Source: Propionibacteriales bacterium (GTDB lineage: Bacteria > Actinomycetota > Actinomycetes > Propionibacteriales > Nocardioidaceae). From it: a DNA stretch of 33,588 bases. The stretch covers positions 1 to 33,588 of the forward strand of contig JAEKKP010000094.1 of assembly GCA_019510315.1 (NCBI GenBank), read 5' to 3'. The notes beneath the pieces were generated by a model. The model did no database searches. It was given only the letters and a program-made list of their open reading frames with translations, and was not told the DNA's origin. Of this stretch, positions 4,941-16,301 are shown one piece after another (within the stretch, counting starts at the first letter, position 1; the number at the start of each line of letters is the position of its first letter). The translations under genes and the position numbers were made by a program.

Positions 4941-6917
4941 TCAGAGCGGCAGAAGCGCTGTCAGCTGGGCGAGCAGCGCGCTCACCGTCGGGTCAGCTGT
5001 GGCTTGACCGACGGCCTGGCCCACTGCAGCGTTCACGGCGTCGGTGAGCTTCTCCCCGGCCGGCGAAGGCTTGGCCAGCGGGTCGAAGATCGTGCCGAGG
5101 CCGTATGCCGGGTACGGGTTGTTCAGCAGCGCGACACCCGTGCCCAGCATGAAGTTGAGCGAGAAGCAGCCGAGCGACCCGAGGCTCGTCTCGGACGCCG
5201 TCCACGTCGCCGTGCCCATGAAGTCCAGGCTCCGGGCCACGGTCGCGTGACCCGATGCCACGAACGGCTCGATCCACACCGGGTACCCGCCCGGGGCGTC
5301 CGCCGCAGTGTCGAGGCCGAGGACCGACGACGTCGTGTTGACGGTCGCACCCGAGGCGAACTTGCCCAGGATGTGGTAGACCGGGCCGCCCACGATGGCG
5401 CCGAGCGGGCCCGTCGCCGGCACGGCCGGCAGCAGGTCGGACCTGGTCACCGTGTAGCCGTCCGGCAGGCTGCGCGTGAACCTGTCGGTCTTGGGCACCG
5501 CGGCGTAGCCCGCGTTGCTCGCAGTCTTCGTGACACAGGTGTTGGAGCTCAGGTTGGCGTAGATGTTCAGGATGATCCCGGCCTGCACCGTGGTGTCGGT
5601 GTAGAGCTGGATTCCACCGGGCTTGCCGGTCGGGTCGATCTGCAGCGCGTCGAGCAGGCTCAGCGACAACGTCTGACCGTTGGAGGTCACCCCGACCCGG
5701 GTCGCCAGCAGGCTGGCGAGGTCGATGCCCTTGGCAGCCGCAGCCGCCTCGAGCTTGTCGAGAGTGCTCTTGTACAACGCGTCCTGCGCCGTCCCGAGCG
5801 ACATCAGCGTCCGGACCGTGCCACCGTTCGACGCGTGCGCGATGAACGCCTTGGTCTGGAGGTCGAACACCCCGACCAGGCTCGGCTCCTGAGCGTTCTG
5901 CAGTGGCCGGTTGACGAACATCAGCCGTGGTGTGCAGCCCGCCGACGGGTCGCACTGGAGTGCGCCGCTGGGCAGGCACGTGCTCGGGTCGGCGACGCAC
6001 GTCTCCGGGTCACCGGGCAGCGGGAAGCTCGACGCGTCGGGCAGGCTGTAGAACTTCATGCTGTTCGCGGTGCCGGCGTAGATCGGGGAGCTCTTCGTGT
6101 CGACCGTGAACTGGAACTCCGCAGGGTTCTGGTTCGCGTTGACGGTGCCCTTGCCGAAGACGTCCTTGAAGGTGTCGTGCCACGGCCGGTACTCGAACGT
6201 CGTCGTCGTGGTCACCGGCCCGGCGATCACGGTCTTGTTGCCGGTGGCAGGGTTCGGGACGCCGATGACGCAGGTGCCCTGGACGCCACCGGGTCCGGTC
6301 GAGTCGCTCTTGGTCATGTTCTGGTTGACCGTGGTCACCGTGTAGACCCCGGCCGGCTTGCCGGTGAGATCGACGCTGACGGTGTAGCCGTGGTTCGTGC
6401 CGGTGCCGGCGTAGTCACCGCGGTAGTTCGTGTCGTTGGGCGCCAACGGCTGGGGTGAGAGCGCGCCGCCGGTGCCGCCGACGGGGTTGATGTCCCTCAC
6501 CGGGCTGACGGCCGGTGTCCCGACGACGTTGTTGCTCGGGTCCTTGACCGTGACGATGGTCCGCGGTGTGTTGTTCTTGCCGCCGGTCGCAGGGTTGTCA
6601 CCCGCGCACAGCTTGCTCGAGAACTTGAGGAGCTTCAGGGTGTTCAGGGTCGCGGGTGCGTACGCCGCGTTGGCGACGGTCGCGACGCTTCCCGAGCGGT
6701 AGTACATCAGCGCCGCGTTGTCGACGGTGATGGTCGCGGTTGCGTTGCGGATGACCGGGCCGTGGGGTCCCGTCTCCGTCGAGCCCACCGTGGTGGTCGC
6801 ACCGGCCGGGATCAGGGTCGCTCCCGCGGCGACCAGGGCGAACGTGGCGAGGAGCGCGCCGAATCGGCGCGTCCTGGGAGTGACCGCCGGCTGACGCCGG
6901 CGTGCATGCTTTGGCAT
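4941..6917 (-). CDS. Secreted protein of unknown function (658 aa)
   Basis: N-terminal signal peptide (RRRQPAVTPRTRRFGALLATFALVAAGATLIPAGA), AGGAG-type RBS before the ATG, low-complexity Thr/Gly/Ala/Asn-rich extracellular composition; no C-terminal TM or anchor seen. Confidence 0.85.
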   Translation of the reverse strand: MPKHARRRQPAVTPRTRRFGALLATFALVAAGATLIPAGATTTVGSTETGPHGPVIRNATATITVDNAALMYYRSGSVATVANAAYAPATLNTLKLLKFSSKLCAGDNPATGGKNNTPRTIVTVKDPSNNVVGTPAVSPVRDINPVGGTGGALSPQPLAPNDTNYRGDYAGTGTNHGYTVSVDLTGKPAGVYTVTTVNQNMTKSDSTGPGGVQGTCVIGVPNPATGNKTVIAGPVTTTTTFEYRPWHDTFKDVFGKGTVNANQNPAEFQFTVDTKSSPIYAGTANSMKFYSLPDASSFPLPGDPETCVADPSTCLPSGALQCDPSAGCTPRLMFVNRPLQNAQEPSLVGVFDLQTKAFIAHASNGGTVRTLMSLGTAQDALYKSTLDKLEAAAAAKGIDLASLLATRVGVTSNGQTLSLSLLDALQIDPTGKPGGIQLYTDTTVQAGIILNIYANLSSNTCVTKTASNAGYAAVPKTDRFTRSLPDGYTVTRSDLLPAVPATGPLGAIVGGPVYHILGKFASGATVNTTSSVLGLDTAADAPGGYPVWIEPFVASGHATVARSLDFMGTATWTASETSLGSLGCFSLNFMLGTGVALLNNPYPAYGLGTIFDPLAKPSPAGEKLTDAVNAAVGQAVGQATADPTVSALLAQLTALLPL

Positions 6918-7103: not shown

Positions 7104-7997
7104 TCAGACGTCGCGCTCGAGCACCTCGTCGAAGCGCAGGTGCTCGATCCCGAACGGATCCTCGGCACCCGCCTCGATCTCGTCCCACGTGCGTGGTGCG
7201 GCGACCGTCGGGACGTCGCGACCGCGCAGGGAGTACGGCGCGATGGTCGTCTTCGAGCCGCTGTTCTGCGACCAGTCGAGGAAGACCTTGCCGCCGCGGC
7301 GCGCCTTCGTCATCTGCGAGACGACCAGCTTGGGGTGCGCCTTCTCGAGCTCCTCGGCGATGCCCTTGGCGTAGTCGCGGACCTGGTCGCTGTCGCGACG
7401 GCCGTCCACCTCGGCGTACAGGTGGATGCCCTTGGACCCGCTGGTGACGGGCAGGCAGTCGAGCCCGTCGGCGGCAAGGCGCTCGCGGACGAGCAGTGCG
7501 ACCTGCGAGCACTCCATCAGCCCTGCCGGATCGCCGGGGTCGAGGTCGATCACCATCTTGTCGGGGTGTCGGGGCCGTCCCTTGGCGTCAACGGTCCACT
7601 GGTGCACGTGCAGCTCGAGCGCCGCCAGGTTCACCAGCCAGGTCAGCGTCGCCAGCGAGTCGACGATCGGGAACTCCAGGGTGCCGGCCTCCTTCGACGC
7701 CGTGCGCGACCCGGTGGTCGGCACCTTTGCGGTGCGCACCCAGCTCGGCGTGCCGGCCGGCACGTTCTTCTCGAAGAAGGACTTGTCGCCGGTCCCGTGC
7801 GGCCAGCGGATCCGGGTGACCGCCCGGTCGGCCAGCACCGGCAGCATGCGGGGCGCGACCTGCGCGTAGTAGTTGAGGACCTCACCCTTGGTCGTGCCCG
7901 TGCGCGGGTACATCACCTTCTCGAGGTTGACCAGCGTGAGCGTGCGGCCCTCGACCTCCACGCGCACCTCCGTGCGCTCCTGCTCGGCCACCCTCAT
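7104..7997 (-). CDS. ligD: LigD-type polymerase (primase-polymerase) domain protein, NHEJ
   Basis: 'VNLEKVMYPRTGTTKGEVLNYYAQVAPRMLPVLADRAVTRIRWPHGTGDKSFFEKN' and 'MVIDLDPGD...LPVTSGSKGIHLYAEVD' are LigD PolDom hallmarks. ATG overlaps the upstream TGA (ATGA). Confidence 0.94.
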   Translation of the reverse strand: MRVAEQERTEVRVEVEGRTLTLVNLEKVMYPRTGTTKGEVLNYYAQVAPRMLPVLADRAVTRIRWPHGTGDKSFFEKNVPAGTPSWVRTAKVPTTGSRTASKEAGTLEFPIVDSLATLTWLVNLAALELHVHQWTVDAKGRPRHPDKMVIDLDPGDPAGLMECSQVALLVRERLAADGLDCLPVTSGSKGIHLYAEVDGRRDSDQVRDYAKGIAEELEKAHPKLVVSQMTKARRGGKVFLDWSQNSGSKTTIAPYSLRGRDVPTVAAPRTWDEIEAGAEDPFGIEHLRFDEVLERDV

Positions 7998-8716
7998 CTC
8001 CCGATCGCGATGACCGGGATCCGGGCCGGGTCGAGGGTGGCGAGCGTCGTGCGCAGGAACCACCGCGGCGCGGAGACGCAGCCCGCGGTCGGTCCAGGGC
8101 CGTTGACGTGGAGGAAGATGCCGGCGCCGCGTCGTCGTACCGGGGCGTCGTAGTTGTAGCTCGTGACGATGGAGTACTCGTACTGCTGGGGGAAGGCACT
8201 GAGCAGCTCGGAGGAGTTGAAATTGCTCTCCGGGAGGCCCCACCGGAAGCCACCCTCGGCCTTGTTGCGGTAGCGGTTGTAGTACGCCGACCGGTTGTCC
8301 TCGACCCAGTAGTCCCCCGGCTGGATGGTCCGGTGGCTCATCCGCCAGCCGGCCTCCGCAGGCTGCGTGCCGAAGGACCAGAGCAGGCGGTAGCTGCCGA
8401 GCGGCGTCGTGCCGGTCCCTTGGTGCCGGTGACGCGGCCGCACGAGGCCCCCGTAGCCGATGTGTCCCCTCGCCGACTGCGCGAGCCGCTGCCAGCCCGC
8501 CGCGCCGCGCTGCCACAGCGTGACCCGCGCGTGGGTGCCGGTCGTGTGATTGACGGTCACCACCTGGTCACTACCGGCTGGGAGCGCCACCCGGACGCCG
8601 TCGAGGACCACGTGGGTGGCCGTCGTGCGGGCGTTCGTCGTGGGGGCGTTCGTCGCCGGCGGGGTGCCGCCCAGGGCGAGCACCATCGCGACCAGCAGCG
8701 GGCCGAGCCAGCTCAC
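7994..8716 (-). CDS. L,D-transpeptidase (YkuD-like) family protein with N-terminal signal/TM segment
   Basis: 'GTGTTPLGSYRL', 'IFLHVNGPGPTAGCVSAP' (catalytic His/Cys region). GTG start overlaps the ligase TGA; stop overlaps the ATG of the polymerase gene. Confidence 0.88.
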   Translation of the reverse strand: MSWLGPLLVAMVLALGGTPPATNAPTTNARTTATHVVLDGVRVALPAGSDQVVTVNHTTGTHARVTLWQRGAAGWQRLAQSARGHIGYGGLVRPRHRHQGTGTTPLGSYRLLWSFGTQPAEAGWRMSHRTIQPGDYWVEDNRSAYYNRYRNKAEGGFRWGLPESNFNSSELLSAFPQQYEYSIVTSYNYDAPVRRRGAGIFLHVNGPGPTAGCVSAPRWFLRTTLATLDPARIPVIAIGR

Positions 8717-9675
8717 CCGTCGTCCCCCTTGCCGATCAGGTCCGTCACGTCGAGGTCGGTGCGGACTCCACGGTACGCCGGCTGACGGAGCCGTCCGTCG
8801 GTCGTGAGCGTCAGGTACTGCACGTCCACGATCACCTCGGGGTCCACCCAGACGGTGCCGGCGGTGTCGACCCGTGGCAGAGCGGTCACGAACGGCGACG
8901 TGGCCCGTTCGAGCGGTCGCAGCTGGTCGCCGAGCCGCTGGCCGGCCTTGCCGGCGATGCCCGAGCCGACCCGGCCGCGGAACACCAGGCCCTCGCTCGT
9001 GGGCTCGCCCACGAGCACGGCGCCGAGCCGGTGGTCGCTGTCGGTCTCGAACCGGAAGCCGCCGACGACGAACGAGCCCGTCGGGCGGATCGGGAACTTC
9101 AGCCAGTCCCGGCTCCGGCGGCCCGGGTGGTACGCGGCGGACCACCGCTTGCTGACGATGCCCTCGAGCCGCTGTGCCTGCGCGGCCTCGAGGAGCGACG
9201 GGCCGTCCTCGTAGGTCGCCGGCACCTGGACCACGGCGGCGATCGCCGCTGTGTCGAGCCCGACCGACTCCAGCAGCTCGCGACGTGCTCGCAGCGGCCG
9301 TCGGCACAGGTCCTCGCCGTCCAGGCGCAGCAGGTCGAACGCCAGGAGGGTGACCGGGTTGGTCTCGGCCAACCGCGCCACCTTCGTGACGTCGCGCAGG
9401 TGCATCCGGTCCGCCAGCGCACCGAACGACGGGACACCGTTGCCCAGCGCGACGATCTCGCCGTCGAGGAGGACGTCGTGGCCGAGGTTCCCCAGGGCCT
9501 GCAGCTCAGGCCAGGCGACGGTGATGTCGTTCTCGTTGCGCGACCACACGCGCACCCGTCCGTCGGTCACCTCGACGAGCGCCCGGATGCCGTCCCACTT
9601 CACCTCGTGGGTCCACTCCGGACCCACCGGGACGTGGTCGCCTCGGGTCGCCAGCATCGGCTGCATGCGGCCCAT
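8713..9675 (-). CDS. ligD: ATP-dependent DNA ligase, LigD ligase domain, NHEJ
   Basis: Adenylation motif 'THEVKWDGIRALVEV', 'DVLLDGEIVAL', 'EGIVSKRWSAAYHPGRRSRDWLKFP'. Confidence 0.95.
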   Translation of the reverse strand: MGRMQPMLATRGDHVPVGPEWTHEVKWDGIRALVEVTDGRVRVWSRNENDITVAWPELQALGNLGHDVLLDGEIVALGNGVPSFGALADRMHLRDVTKVARLAETNPVTLLAFDLLRLDGEDLCRRPLRARRELLESVGLDTAAIAAVVQVPATYEDGPSLLEAAQAQRLEGIVSKRWSAAYHPGRRSRDWLKFPIRPTGSFVVGGFRFETDSDHRLGAVLVGEPTSEGLVFRGRVGSGIAGKAGQRLGDQLRPLERATSPFVTALPRVDTAGTVWVDPEVIVDVQYLTLTTDGRLRQPAYRGVRTDLDVTDLIGKGDDG

Positions 9676-9687
9676 CCTCGCAGGCGG

Positions 9688-11313
9688 TCACGGACCCGAC
9701 TTGAAGGTGACCGGACCGCCGCCCGGACCGCCGCCGGCGCTGCGTCCGAGCGGTATGCCCTTGAAGCCGCCACGCTGGTCGAGGGAGTCGGCCGCGCCGG
9801 TGATCGCCTGGTCGATGTCGGCCACCACGACCTCGTCGCCGGGCTCGAGGCCGTGGGTGATCTCGACCTCGCGGGCGCCGACCGTGCCGATCGTGACTCC
9901 CGTGCGGGAGAGCTCCTTGCCGTCCCAGGTCCGCACGGATGCAGCGTCGCCTCGCCGGGTGACGGCCGAGATCGGCACCGTCACCACGTCCTTCGCCGTG
10001 GCGACGACGATCGCGAGCATCGCCTGCGACCCGGCGGGCAGTGGGATGGTCGGGTCCTCGACGGTCACGGTGACCGGGTAGGTCGCCGTACCCGAGGACG
10101 TGTCAGCGACCAGGCCGACGGCGGTGACCGTGCCCTCCGCGGTGTCCGGCTGCCCCGGGGTGGTCACCCGGACCGTCTCGCCGACCTTGACCTGGCCGAC
10201 CTTGGCCGACGGCACGGTGCCCTTGATCGTCACGGCCTTGCCCCCGACCACGACCGCGCCGACGTCCCCCGCGCTGACCTGGTCGCCCTCGGCGACCGGC
10301 AGGGACACGACCCTGCCCGAGCGGGTGGACCGCAGGACGGCCTGGCGGAGCTGCTGCTGGGCATCGACCAGGTCGGCACGTGCCTTCTCGATGGCCGCCT
10401 GGTCGGCGGCGAGGCGGGCCGCCGTCACCGTGCCCGAGCTGCTGTCGGGCTGGTCTGCGGTCGGCGTCACGGCGCCGTCGCTCGCGGGGGTGGTGCTGCC
10501 ACCGGACGGAGTGGTCGGGTCGTCGGACGGAGTCGCGCTGTTCGCCGACAGGGTGGCGAGGGCCTGGGTCAGGGTGGCGGCGAGGGTGGAGAGCGCCTTC
10601 GCGAGCGCGTCCTGAGCAGCGCTGACATCGTCCTGGCGTGCCTGCACCTCGGCGAGCGCCGTCGAGCAGGCCGTGGCGTCGCCATCTCCGCTCTTGCCAT
10701 CCTCCTGGTAGGCGTCGGCACAGGCAGCGGTCTGGGCCGTCAGCGCGTCCTTCGCTGCCGCGATGGCCGTCGTCGCCGCGGTCTGCGCCTGCAGCACGGC
10801 GTCCTGTTGGTCCTTCAGCGCCTGCAGCTGTGCCGCCGTGTCCGGGTCCGGGCCGCTGCTGGTCGGAGACGCCGAGGGCGTGCTGCTCTTCGGCTTGTTC
10901 GCCTTCGGCTTCGACGACGCGGCGTCCGCGACGGCCTGTGCCTGGGCGTCCTTGTCGGCCTCGAGCTGGGCGACGGCGCGGGCGACGCTCGCCCTCGCCC
11001 GGGTGACCGCCGCCTGCAACGTGTGCGCGTCGAGCCGGGCGATCACCTGTCCCGCCCTCACGGTGTCGCCAACCGCCACGGCGAGCCGGGCCACGGTGCC
11101 GGCGGCACCGAACTCCAGGTCGGCCCGTCGGGCGGCGTCGACGGATCCGCTGGTCGAGAGCACCTCCTCGACGTCGCCCTTCGTGGCGCGCACGGTGCGG
11201 TAGCTGCCGGTGGAGGGGTCGTTCGTCACGGCGTACGCCGTGCCGCTGCCGGCCACGAGCACGGCCACCGTGGCCAGCACCGGCCAGCGGATCCTCTTCA
11301 CCCGGTGTCGCAC
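9688..11313 (-). CDS. HlyD/RND-type periplasmic adaptor-like protein with long coiled coil and Ser/Thr/Pro-rich inserts
   Basis: 'LEFGAAGTVARLAVAVGDTVRAGQVIARLDAHTLQAAV' lipoyl/HlyD motif, Ala/Gln-rich hairpin, 'VVSLPVAEGDQVSAGDVGAVV'. GTG start 1 nt after the upstream stop. Confidence 0.88.
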   Translation of the reverse strand: MRHRVKRIRWPVLATVAVLVAGSGTAYAVTNDPSTGSYRTVRATKGDVEEVLSTSGSVDAARRADLEFGAAGTVARLAVAVGDTVRAGQVIARLDAHTLQAAVTRARASVARAVAQLEADKDAQAQAVADAASSKPKANKPKSSTPSASPTSSGPDPDTAAQLQALKDQQDAVLQAQTAATTAIAAAKDALTAQTAACADAYQEDGKSGDGDATACSTALAEVQARQDDVSAAQDALAKALSTLAATLTQALATLSANSATPSDDPTTPSGGSTTPASDGAVTPTADQPDSSSGTVTAARLAADQAAIEKARADLVDAQQQLRQAVLRSTRSGRVVSLPVAEGDQVSAGDVGAVVVGGKAVTIKGTVPSAKVGQVKVGETVRVTTPGQPDTAEGTVTAVGLVADTSSGTATYPVTVTVEDPTIPLPAGSQAMLAIVVATAKDVVTVPISAVTRRGDAASVRTWDGKELSRTGVTIGTVGAREVEITHGLEPGDEVVVADIDQAITGAADSLDQRGGFKGIPLGRSAGGGPGGGPVTFKSGP

Positions 11314-11314
11314 C

Positions 11315-12166
11315 TCAGGACTCCTGACCCGTGTCGGAGCCGGAGCCGGCGCGCATCCGTGTGAAGCCGCCGCACTGCCCGTCCTTCGGAGTGGAGACCG
11401 CCATCGTCTTGGCGGTGACCGCTCCGGTGTCGTCGGTGGTGCCCTCCGCCTGCACGCACACGCCGACCTTGACGTCGGACGCGGCACCCGGGGCCGTCGT
11501 CGTGTACGTCGTCGCGGCGGCGGCCGTGACGGTCACGGTCGTCTTGTCGTTGCTGCCGGGCATCACCGAGGAGACCGTGAAGCCGGTGCCGGAGACCGCG
11601 GTGACCTCGCCGAACGCTCCGCCGATCGCCCGGATCTGGGGCCGGGGGCCGCCGCTCGGCGCCCCCGACGGCGGCGTGCCGTTGAGCTGCGGGCCGCCCG
11701 GACCCGCTCCCGGGCCACGTCCGCCGAGTGCGCAGGAGCCGTTCGTCGGCTGGGTGATCCGGACGGTCCCTGCAGTGATCGCGGTCGGCGGCGTCGTGCT
11801 GCCCGAGGTGGTGTCGTCGGCCGAGGAGACCGCCACGCACGAGCCGACCTTCACGTCGGCGAGCGTGGCGCTGACCTCCTTGGTGAAGACCGTGCTGCCC
11901 GTCCACGTGACGGCGACCTGACCCTGGAGGCCCTGCACCTGGGCGGTGCCGTCGGCAACGGCCGCGACCTTGCCGCTGGCGCCCGGGAACTGCCCGGCAG
12001 GCCCGTCCTGGCTGGTCTGCGGACCGTTGTCGGTGCTGCCCCGGCTCGGAGCGCCCGTGTTGTCGGCGCTGCTCCCGCAGGCGCTGACCAGGAGAGCCGT
12101 CGCGGCACAGGCGATGGCAACTCTGGCGCCCAGGCGGGTGCGAGTGTGGGGAGTGGTGAGGCTCAT
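11315..12166 (-). CDS. DUF5666-like lipoprotein
   Basis: Lipobox 'TALLVSACGS'. Two related segments: 'GKVAAVADGTAQVQG...TKEVSATLADVKVGSCVAV' and 'GEVTAVSGTGFTVSS...SDVKVGVCVQAEG'. ATG at 12166 has AAGGAG RBS; alternative ATG at 12184 overlaps the permease stop. Confidence 0.83.
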   Translation of the reverse strand: MSLTTPHTRTRLGARVAIACAATALLVSACGSSADNTGAPSRGSTDNGPQTSQDGPAGQFPGASGKVAAVADGTAQVQGLQGQVAVTWTGSTVFTKEVSATLADVKVGSCVAVSSADDTTSGSTTPPTAITAGTVRITQPTNGSCALGGRGPGAGPGGPQLNGTPPSGAPSGGPRPQIRAIGGAFGEVTAVSGTGFTVSSVMPGSNDKTTVTVTAAAATTYTTTAPGAASDVKVGVCVQAEGTTDDTGAVTAKTMAVSTPKDGQCGGFTRMRAGSGSDTGQES

Positions 12167-12180
12167 GGTTCTCCTTGGGT

Positions 12181-14105
<1,925 letters not shown>

Positions 14106-14109
14106 CCGG

Positions 14110-15261
14110 TCACCCACCCTTCTGGACGAGCACCGGTCCCTGACCGCCACCACCCGGTCCGGCGCCGTCGGGGATCTGGAAGTCGGTGTTCGGCCCGTTG
14201 CGGTTGCCGGAGCCGCCCTTCGGAGCGCTGAAGCTGACCACCTCGACGACGTCACCCTCCTTGAGCCCCGAGAGCACCTGGGTGTTGATGCCGTAGGTCT
14301 CACCGACGGTGACGACGCGCTTGGTGCGCTTCGACCCGTCGATCACGTAGACGTACGTCGTGTCGCCGTCGGTGTGCAGTGCCTGCGAGTTCACGGCCAG
14401 CACGTCGGTGGCCTGCTTCACGGTGATCGCCACGTCGGCACTCGAGCCGGCGTACAGGCCCGCCGTCTTGCCGGTCACGTCGACGGTGACGGGGAACTGC
14501 GCGGCACCGCTGTCGCTCGCCGTCGCGATCACGCCGACCTCGGAGACCGTCCCGTAGGCGACGTCGCCGCCGCCGGTCGGGGTGATCTCGACCTGCATGC
14601 CCTTCTTCAGCTTGCTGACGTCGGCGGCGGACACGTTCGCGTCGATCTGCAGCGAGCGTGGCGAGATCACGGTGATCGCGGGGGTGGTGCCCGAGCCACC
14701 GTCGGACGCCGGAGTGTTCCCCGCCTGGTCGCCGACCTCGTAGCCCACGGCGCTGACCGTCCCGCTGAACGGCGCCCGCAGCGTGGCGTCGCTCAGGGCG
14801 TCCTGCGCGTCCTCCAGGTCGGACTGAGCCGACGCGACGGAAGCCTCGTCGGCGGCGACCTGCGTCGACGAGGCATCGCTGTCCTCGGAGAGCTGGGACT
14901 TCGCCGCCGTCAGCTGCGCCTCGGCCGCGTCGACCTGGGCCTGCAGCGACGAGGAGTCGATCGTCGCGAGGAGGTCACCCTTGTGGACCTTGTCGCCGAC
15001 CGCGACGGCGACGCGCGTGACGCTGCCCGAGGACGAGAAGGAGAGGTCCTCCTCGCGCTTCGGGGTGATCGTGCCGGTGGCCGAGACGGTGGTCTTGTAG
15101 GTCCCCTTGGCGACGGTCGCGGTGATCCGCTGGGCGCTCGGGCTGTCGTCGCGCGCCATCCAGGTCCAGCCGCCCGCGACGAGGGCCACCAGGACCACCA
15201 GCACCGCGACCCACCAGCGGCGGGGCATCGATCGGAGCCGGGAGGGAAGGGGCAATCGCAT
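14110..15261 (-). CDS. HlyD-type efflux adaptor subunit
   Basis: '[45 protein letters not shown]'; single N-terminal TM; first gene of the export operon. Confidence 0.92.
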
Positions 15262-15359: not shown

Positions 15360-16301
15360 ATGCGTGCCATCTGGAAGGGTGCCGTCTCGTTCGGCCTCGT
15401 CAGCGTCCCGGTCAAGCTGTATGCCGCCACGGAGAGCAAGGACATCTCCTTCCGGCAGGTGCACGCCAAGGACGGCGGCCGCATCAAGTACCAGCGGGTC
15501 TGCAGCATTGACGGCGAGGAGGTCGCGTACGCCGACATCGCCAAGGGCTACGAGACCGAGGACGGCGAGATGGTCATCCTCACCGACGACGACATGACCC
15601 AGCTGCCGGCAAGCAGCAGCCGCGAGATCAGCGTCGAGAAGTTCGTGCCCAGCGAGCAGATCGACCCGATGCTGTTCGAGAAGTCCTACTACCTCGAGCC
15701 CGAGAAGACCGGCGCCAAGCCCTACGCCCTCCTGCGCCAGGCGCTCGAGGACGCCGACCGGATGGCCCTGGTCACGGTCTCCCTGCGCAACCGGATGTCG
15801 CTGGCCGTCCTTCGCGTGCGCGACGACGTGATCGTGCTGCAGACGATGATGTGGCCCGACGAGATCCGGCAGGCGGACTTCGGGTCGGTCGACACCGCGG
15901 AGGCCAAGCCCGCCGAGGTCAAGATGGCCAAGATGCTCGTCGAGACGCTGGCCGGGGACTTCGAGCCCGACGAGTACGAGGACGACTACCGCCAGGCCGT
16001 CGAGGACCTCGTCAAGACCAAGATCGAGGGCGGCGAGGTGAAGGCGGCGCCCAAGGAGCGCAAGAGCGGTGGCGAGGTCGTCGACCTGCTGGCCGCGCTG
16101 CAGCGCAGCGTCGAGGCGGCGAAGAGCGCCCGCGGCGAGGCGAGCGACGACGCCGAGCAGCCGCCGGCGAAGAAGACCGCGAGCAAGAGCGCCGCGAAGA
16201 AGTCGGCCAGCAAGAGCACCGCGAAGAAGACAGCCCAGAAGTCGGGCCGAAAGACGGCGAGCAAGAGCGCCGCGAAGAAGTCGACGCGCAAGGCCAGCTG
16301 A
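15360..16301 (+). CDS. ku: Bacterial Ku protein with Lys/Ala/Ser-rich C-terminal tail
   Basis: 'MRAIWKGAVSFGLVSVPVKLYAATE...FRQVHAKDGGRIKYQRVCSIDGEEV' is characteristic of bacterial Ku. Confidence 0.97.
   Translation: MRAIWKGAVSFGLVSVPVKLYAATESKDISFRQVHAKDGGRIKYQRVCSIDGEEVAYADIAKGYETEDGEMVILTDDDMTQLPASSSREISVEKFVPSEQIDPMLFEKSYYLEPEKTGAKPYALLRQALEDADRMALVTVSLRNRMSLAVLRVRDDVIVLQTMMWPDEIRQADFGSVDTAEAKPAEVKMAKMLVETLAGDFEPDEYEDDYRQAVEDLVKTKIEGGEVKAAPKERKSGGEVVDLLAALQRSVEAAKSARGEASDDAEQPPAKKTASKSAAKKSASKSTAKKTAQKSGRKTASKSAAKKSTRKAS
16179..16283 (+). repeat. Two copies of a 27-bp direct repeat (78-bp period) in the Ku tail
   Basis: gcgagcaagagcgccgcgaagaagtcg occurs identically at 16179-16205 and 16257-16283, encoding ASKSAAKKS. 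Confidence 0.9.

Follow-up and report, generated by a model that had tools for sequence, protein, structure and literature searches.

In the split LigD/Ku loci described from actinobacteria (Streptomyces kuA-polK and ligD, PMC5124664), Ku, ligase and polymerase are encoded by separate genes, Ku lies near the polymerase or the ligase gene, and kuA rises in late development. A large survey of NHEJ neighbourhoods took in solely LigD proteins with all domains in a single protein (PMC7719229), and an insert in a split LigD locus would therefore have escaped it. L,D-transpeptidases commonly act in stationary phase or under stress, and LdtD of E. coli is induced upon DNA damage (PMC12729407). The targets of MtrA in M. 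tuberculosis include mku, ligD and ldtA (PMC11215152), which is a hint only. Among open-licence papers, none was found that links a LigD locus with an L,D-transpeptidase, nor was an earlier description found of a YkuD insert in a ligase-polymerase tandem.

The window analysed in the current study, a stretch of 33,588 nucleotides from a Propionibacteriales bacterium, resembles the Streptomyces loci in its separate genes and in the placement of Ku. It differs from them in having one ligase-polymerase tandem, which is split by a predicted wall-enzyme gene (table 1). The reading preferred here, in which we place about even confidence, is that this gene (LDT) encodes a wall-modifying enzyme, old and exported, that the NHEJ operon carries and probably co-expresses, to some related benefit, and that is no partner in repair.

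Gene order and surroundings of the split LigD locus

Table 1. Features of the NHEJ locus, in positions of the window.
Feature	Position	Strand	Basis
LigD-type ATP-dependent ligase (LIG)	8713..9675	(-)	320 aa; PF01068 + PF04679; TIGR02779 249 bits, above cut-off
Divergent YkuD-superfamily enzyme (LDT), predicted	7994..8716	(-)	240 aa, GTG start; PF03734 25.3 bits
LigD-type primase-polymerase (POL)	7104..7997	(-)	297 aa; PF21686 281 bits; TIGR02778 261 bits, above cut-off
LIG/LDT stop/start overlap GTGA	8713..8716	(-)	sequence and translation
LDT/POL stop/start overlap ATGA	7994..7997	(-)	sequence and translation
Predicted N-terminal export signal of LDT	8620..8716	(-)	residues ~1-32, extent approximate; low-confidence tail of model
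Putative catalytic His203 codon	8108..8110	(-)	invariant, 46 aligned homologues
Putative catalytic Cys213 codon, in T-x-G-C	8078..8080	(-)	invariant, 46 homologues
Ku gene	15360..16301	(+), divergent from operon	PF02735
Efflux cassette between Ku and LIG	9688..15261	(-)	five genes, tight spacing, upstream of LIG; Pfam matches
HlyD-type, cassette gene	14110-15261	(-)	Pfam
ABC ATPase, cassette gene	~13404-14105	(-)	Pfam
MacB/FtsX permease, cassette gene	12181-13407	(-)	Pfam
DUF5666, cassette gene	11315-12184	(-)	Pfam
Second HlyD-type, cassette gene	~9688-11313	(-)	Pfam

LIG matched DNA_ligase_A_M/A_C and NHEJ_ligase_lig above cut-off (Pfam/NCBIfam), passing the NHEJ-specific ligase limit of TIGR02779 (249 bits vs 227.75). 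POL was recognized as a LigD primase-polymerase by TIGR02778 (ligD_pol, 260.7 vs a cut-off of 214.7) and PF21686 (LigD_Prim-Pol, 281 bits). Judged from these profile matches, the pair is clearly identified as a split LigD ligase and polymerase of the NHEJ type. The same genome holds elsewhere two further LigD-polymerase-like genes, both distant, L002 (contig C94, 31% identity) and L003 (contig C206, 36%). Downstream of POL, at 4941-6917, lies a gene for a large predicted secreted protein, which had no Pfam match and was not found near the NHEJ loci of relatives.

The order ligase, YkuD gene, polymerase, the coordinates and both 4-nt overlaps, as given in the original prediction, were confirmed by sequence and translation. 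The 3' end of LIG (9675->8713) reads ...GACGGGTGA, the GTG start of LDT lying within the shared GTGA (8716-8713), and that of LDT (8716->7994) reads ...GGGAGATGA, the ATG start of POL lying within the shared ATGA (7997-7994). From this spacing, expression of LIG, LDT and POL as a single operon is likely. The overlaps had also been viewed as something unusual and as a sign of special coupling, which is rejected here, since they are ordinary both in the window's own operon, where further ATGA overlaps occur at 13404-13407 and probably also at 12181-12184, and in relatives. Among species with the LIG-LDT-POL order, in-frame NTGA overlaps were found at 26/33 LIG/LDT and 13/33 LDT/POL junctions, and overlaps of like kind at 46/91 LIG/POL junctions that are free of inserts. 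In one relative (locus L109, genome G135), the LIG-POL gap holds about 100 nt of short GGGTGGGCACGGACG repeats.

The last gene of the MacAB-like efflux cassette ends 12 nt before the LIG start, so that LIG, LDT and POL appear as the final three genes of a unit of eight. Ku adjoins or is close to LIG in nearly all relatives. The cassette separates the two in 9/22 members of the window's genus, and in other relatives Ku is directly divergent from LIG; the ancestral core is therefore taken to be Ku beside the ligase-polymerase pair. Simple patterns gave no promoter-like, DNA-damage or stress motif in the short Ku-LIG gaps, bar one PafBC half-match, a result counted against the preferred reading. 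When scanned for Rfam families and tRNAs, the window gave no matches, and the latter result indicates a window without a tRNA-based integration site.

An operon that takes up genes in this way may simply tolerate them. It is possible, if somewhat doubtful, that LDT is a passenger, expressed from the operon promoter, with a wall function unrelated to the conditions of NHEJ and a position owed to history and not to selected co-regulation. The ordinary nature of the overlaps and the cassette in nine genus members are consistent with this. Other DNA between Ku and LIG is also commoner where LDT is present (14/31 vs 17/83; Fisher p 0.017, relatedness being ignored).

A divergent YkuD-type enzyme with a predicted export signal

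The match of LDT to the YkuD profile is weak and marginal (PF03734, 25.3 bits vs a cut-off of 23.4). The genome (75% complete) has three other, far stronger YkuD matches on other contigs, which makes LDT a divergent extra copy and not the main wall enzyme. Across 46 aligned homologues, His203, Thr210, Gly212 and Cys213 do not vary, the putative catalytic His/Cys motif is intact in 33/33 junction copies, and a simple hydropathy rule finds an N-terminal hydrophobic export signal in 32/33 of these. On such features LDT can safely be classed as a predicted exported enzyme of the YkuD superfamily. The LDTs L101, L153 and L192 (genomes G102, G218 and G257) have RR-containing N-termini (TRRTALALG, TRRAALGTV and SRRAVLGSV) that are twin-arginine-like, unlike the rest.

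The AlphaFold model of LDT is confident (pLDDT 91.8). A fold search gave only weak matches to distant YkuD-type structures, the best solved folds being Pgp2 (TM 0.41, E 1.9e-3) and Ldtfm (TM 0.36), with none at E<=0.001, and a PDB sequence search returned only unrelated matches at chance level. Pgp2 of Campylobacter is a YkuD-related, peptidoglycan-trimming enzyme; at 12% identity and TM <0.5, this best match is too weak for its activity to be transferred to LDT. With YkuD L,D-transpeptidases of the LdtMt2 and Ldtfm type (PF03734), LDT shares the YkuD match, the conserved His and Cys, and predicted export. Its motif is T-x-G-C-V-S, with the His 10 residues before the Cys, and the His-Cys spacing of LdtMt2 is longer. 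The 1,3-cross-linking enzymes LdtGo2/LDTGo (PMC10727944, PMC10864386) likewise belong to a divergent YkuD branch barely caught by domain models, but they are proteobacterial, their spacing is 19 residues (His245-Cys264) compared with 10 in LDT, and they are absent from the listed fold matches. Of the original naming as an L,D-transpeptidase, membership of the YkuD superfamily therefore stands, and the exact name is provisional because the profile score is low and no solved structure is close (TM <=0.41); LDT may be a transpeptidase, a carboxypeptidase or a hydrolase.

LDT is under purifying selection. By a simple counting method, which is approximate for these G+C-rich genes, dN/dS in ten pairs was 0.12-0.54 for LDT and 0.08-0.21 for POL; the mostly higher values of LDT indicate weaker constraint, which was counted against the preferred reading. 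At the same time, the purifying selection and the intact motif argue against a passenger. Direct participation of LDT in the joining of DNA ends is highly improbable. Its location inside the ligase-polymerase operon, and nothing more, would favour such a role, which is opposed by the predicted export signal, by the wall-enzyme motif, and by a tandem that lacks LDT in most relatives.

Distribution and history of the junction in Nocardioidaceae

In a sample of 220 Nocardioidaceae genomes, LDT orthologues (E<=1e-25) were found in 53 and tandem ligase-polymerase genes in 136. With the thresholds used, LDT lies at the LIG/POL junction in 33 of these tandems (6 in genus g1 and 27 in genus g6), lies elsewhere in six, and is absent in 97. 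Genomes with both the tandem and LDT thus have LDT exactly at this junction, on the same strand, in 33/39 cases, indicating an order beyond chance. Within the window's genus the order is present in 6/22 genomes having both NHEJ genes. The named relatives, whose species overlap with the 220-genome set, gave 52 complete LIG-LDT-POL loci among 80, and these fall in Nocardioides and Marmoricola, with Marmoricola sp. Leaf446 and Nocardioides pocheonensis among the cultured carriers. The survey of gene neighbourhoods that had been suggested with the original prediction therefore shows an order not confined to one strain, and a strain-only curiosity is rejected.

LDT homologues of Mumia, Streptomyces and others lie away from LigD genes, among varied neighbours, and no neighbour common across lineages was seen in the 11 loci inspected outside the junction. 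A second NHEJ-linked position, beyond Ku, is occupied in N. mangrovicus (L080 of genome G010, 7269-7874, and L262, 5001-5627).

An obligate tie of LDT to NHEJ does not agree with the 97 tandems without the gene, the six with it elsewhere, and the many changes of state on the tree described below. Absence from most relatives, and location elsewhere in some, was counted against the preferred reading, and frequent absence is what a passenger would show. A passenger is also favoured by the LIG/POL junction of genome G020, where an unrelated thioredoxin-rhodanese-like gene stands, suggesting that the site accepts inserts without a special link. However, this gene is the sole exception among the junction inserts, 33/34 of which belong to the one LDT family, and were position irrelevant, more copies outside the junction than the six seen would be expected in both genera. 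The G020 gene, identified from sequence reading, is on the reverse strand of L054 (2420-3085) and has an ATGA overlap with the LIG stop.

The history of the junction was mapped on a LIG+POL tree (a quick tree with a midpoint root, not a species tree). The junction changed state 23 times, at least 17 of the changes being forced by well supported branches. In a two-rate model, the loss rate was about six times the gain rate, with presence at the midpoint root at 0.95; a gain-only model was 12.6 lnL units worse, and a loss-only model 3.6 units worse than loss with gain. LDT distances track LIG+POL distances (Mantel r 0.66, and 0.76 within g6; 0/999 permutations). By the AU test the LDT and LIG+POL trees are mutually rejected, and they have 11/30 splits in common, so that descent was not purely vertical and some recombination or transfer was mixed in.

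The sister species G008 and G009 differ at the junction by 713 nt, bounded by a GCGC repeat, and in G008 the LDT start and first codons are fused in frame to POL. This scar fits a deletion via GCGC microhomology, and with LDT present in the nearby G005 and G017 a deletion is a simpler account than an insertion. In a scar search across pairs, a clean join was seen solely in this closest pair, the alignments of distant pairs being uninterpretable.

The patchy distribution with its many changes, the mutual rejection of the trees, and the better fit of a model with some gain would also be expected if horizontally spreading LDT copies had colonised the junction independently many times, as opposed to one entry followed by many losses. 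Such repeated insertion is nevertheless unlikely: LDT distances still follow those of LIG+POL, gain alone fits much worse, the G008/G009 scar points to deletion, and an unsystematic look noticed no mobile-element genes at the junction. The gene order is an old and recurrent one that has often been lost. The original suggestion of an accidental insertion that persisted fits this history of early entry and then mostly loss.

Proposed co-expression and role

In the explanation we prefer, a gene for a YkuD-type wall enzyme would have entered the split LigD ligase/polymerase junction early in the Nocardioides/Marmoricola radiation, and would since then have been inherited in place, partly exchanged by recombination, and many times lost. 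As the middle gene of an NHEJ operon divergent from Ku, with gene starts on or near the preceding stops, LDT would be expressed whenever the end-joining ligase and polymerase are made, by analogy with other actinobacteria in slow-growing, stressed or dormant states. The stress and stationary-phase roles of L,D-transpeptidases and the late rise of kuA (PMC12729407, PMC5124664) make such co-expression with NHEJ plausible. The enzyme would then leave the cytoplasm and modify peptidoglycan, by cross-linking or trimming, and would take no part in end joining. LDT is thus probably co-produced with the repair proteins and not needed for repair, and its frequent loss indicates that it is dispensable.

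A further step, which we regard as rather unlikely, is that one signal drives both the NHEJ ligase and polymerase and the production of an exported peptidoglycan enzyme, joined in some members by an efflux system, so that wall and genome would be fortified together at dormancy or drying. Closely related species whose NHEJ operons match except for the presence or absence of the wall gene provide a natural experiment, by which the suspected joint management of DNA-break repair and wall remodelling in non-growing actinobacteria becomes directly testable. LDT also draws attention to an uncharacterised YkuD branch, and the locus illustrates that overlapping genes of one operon need not belong to the same pathway.
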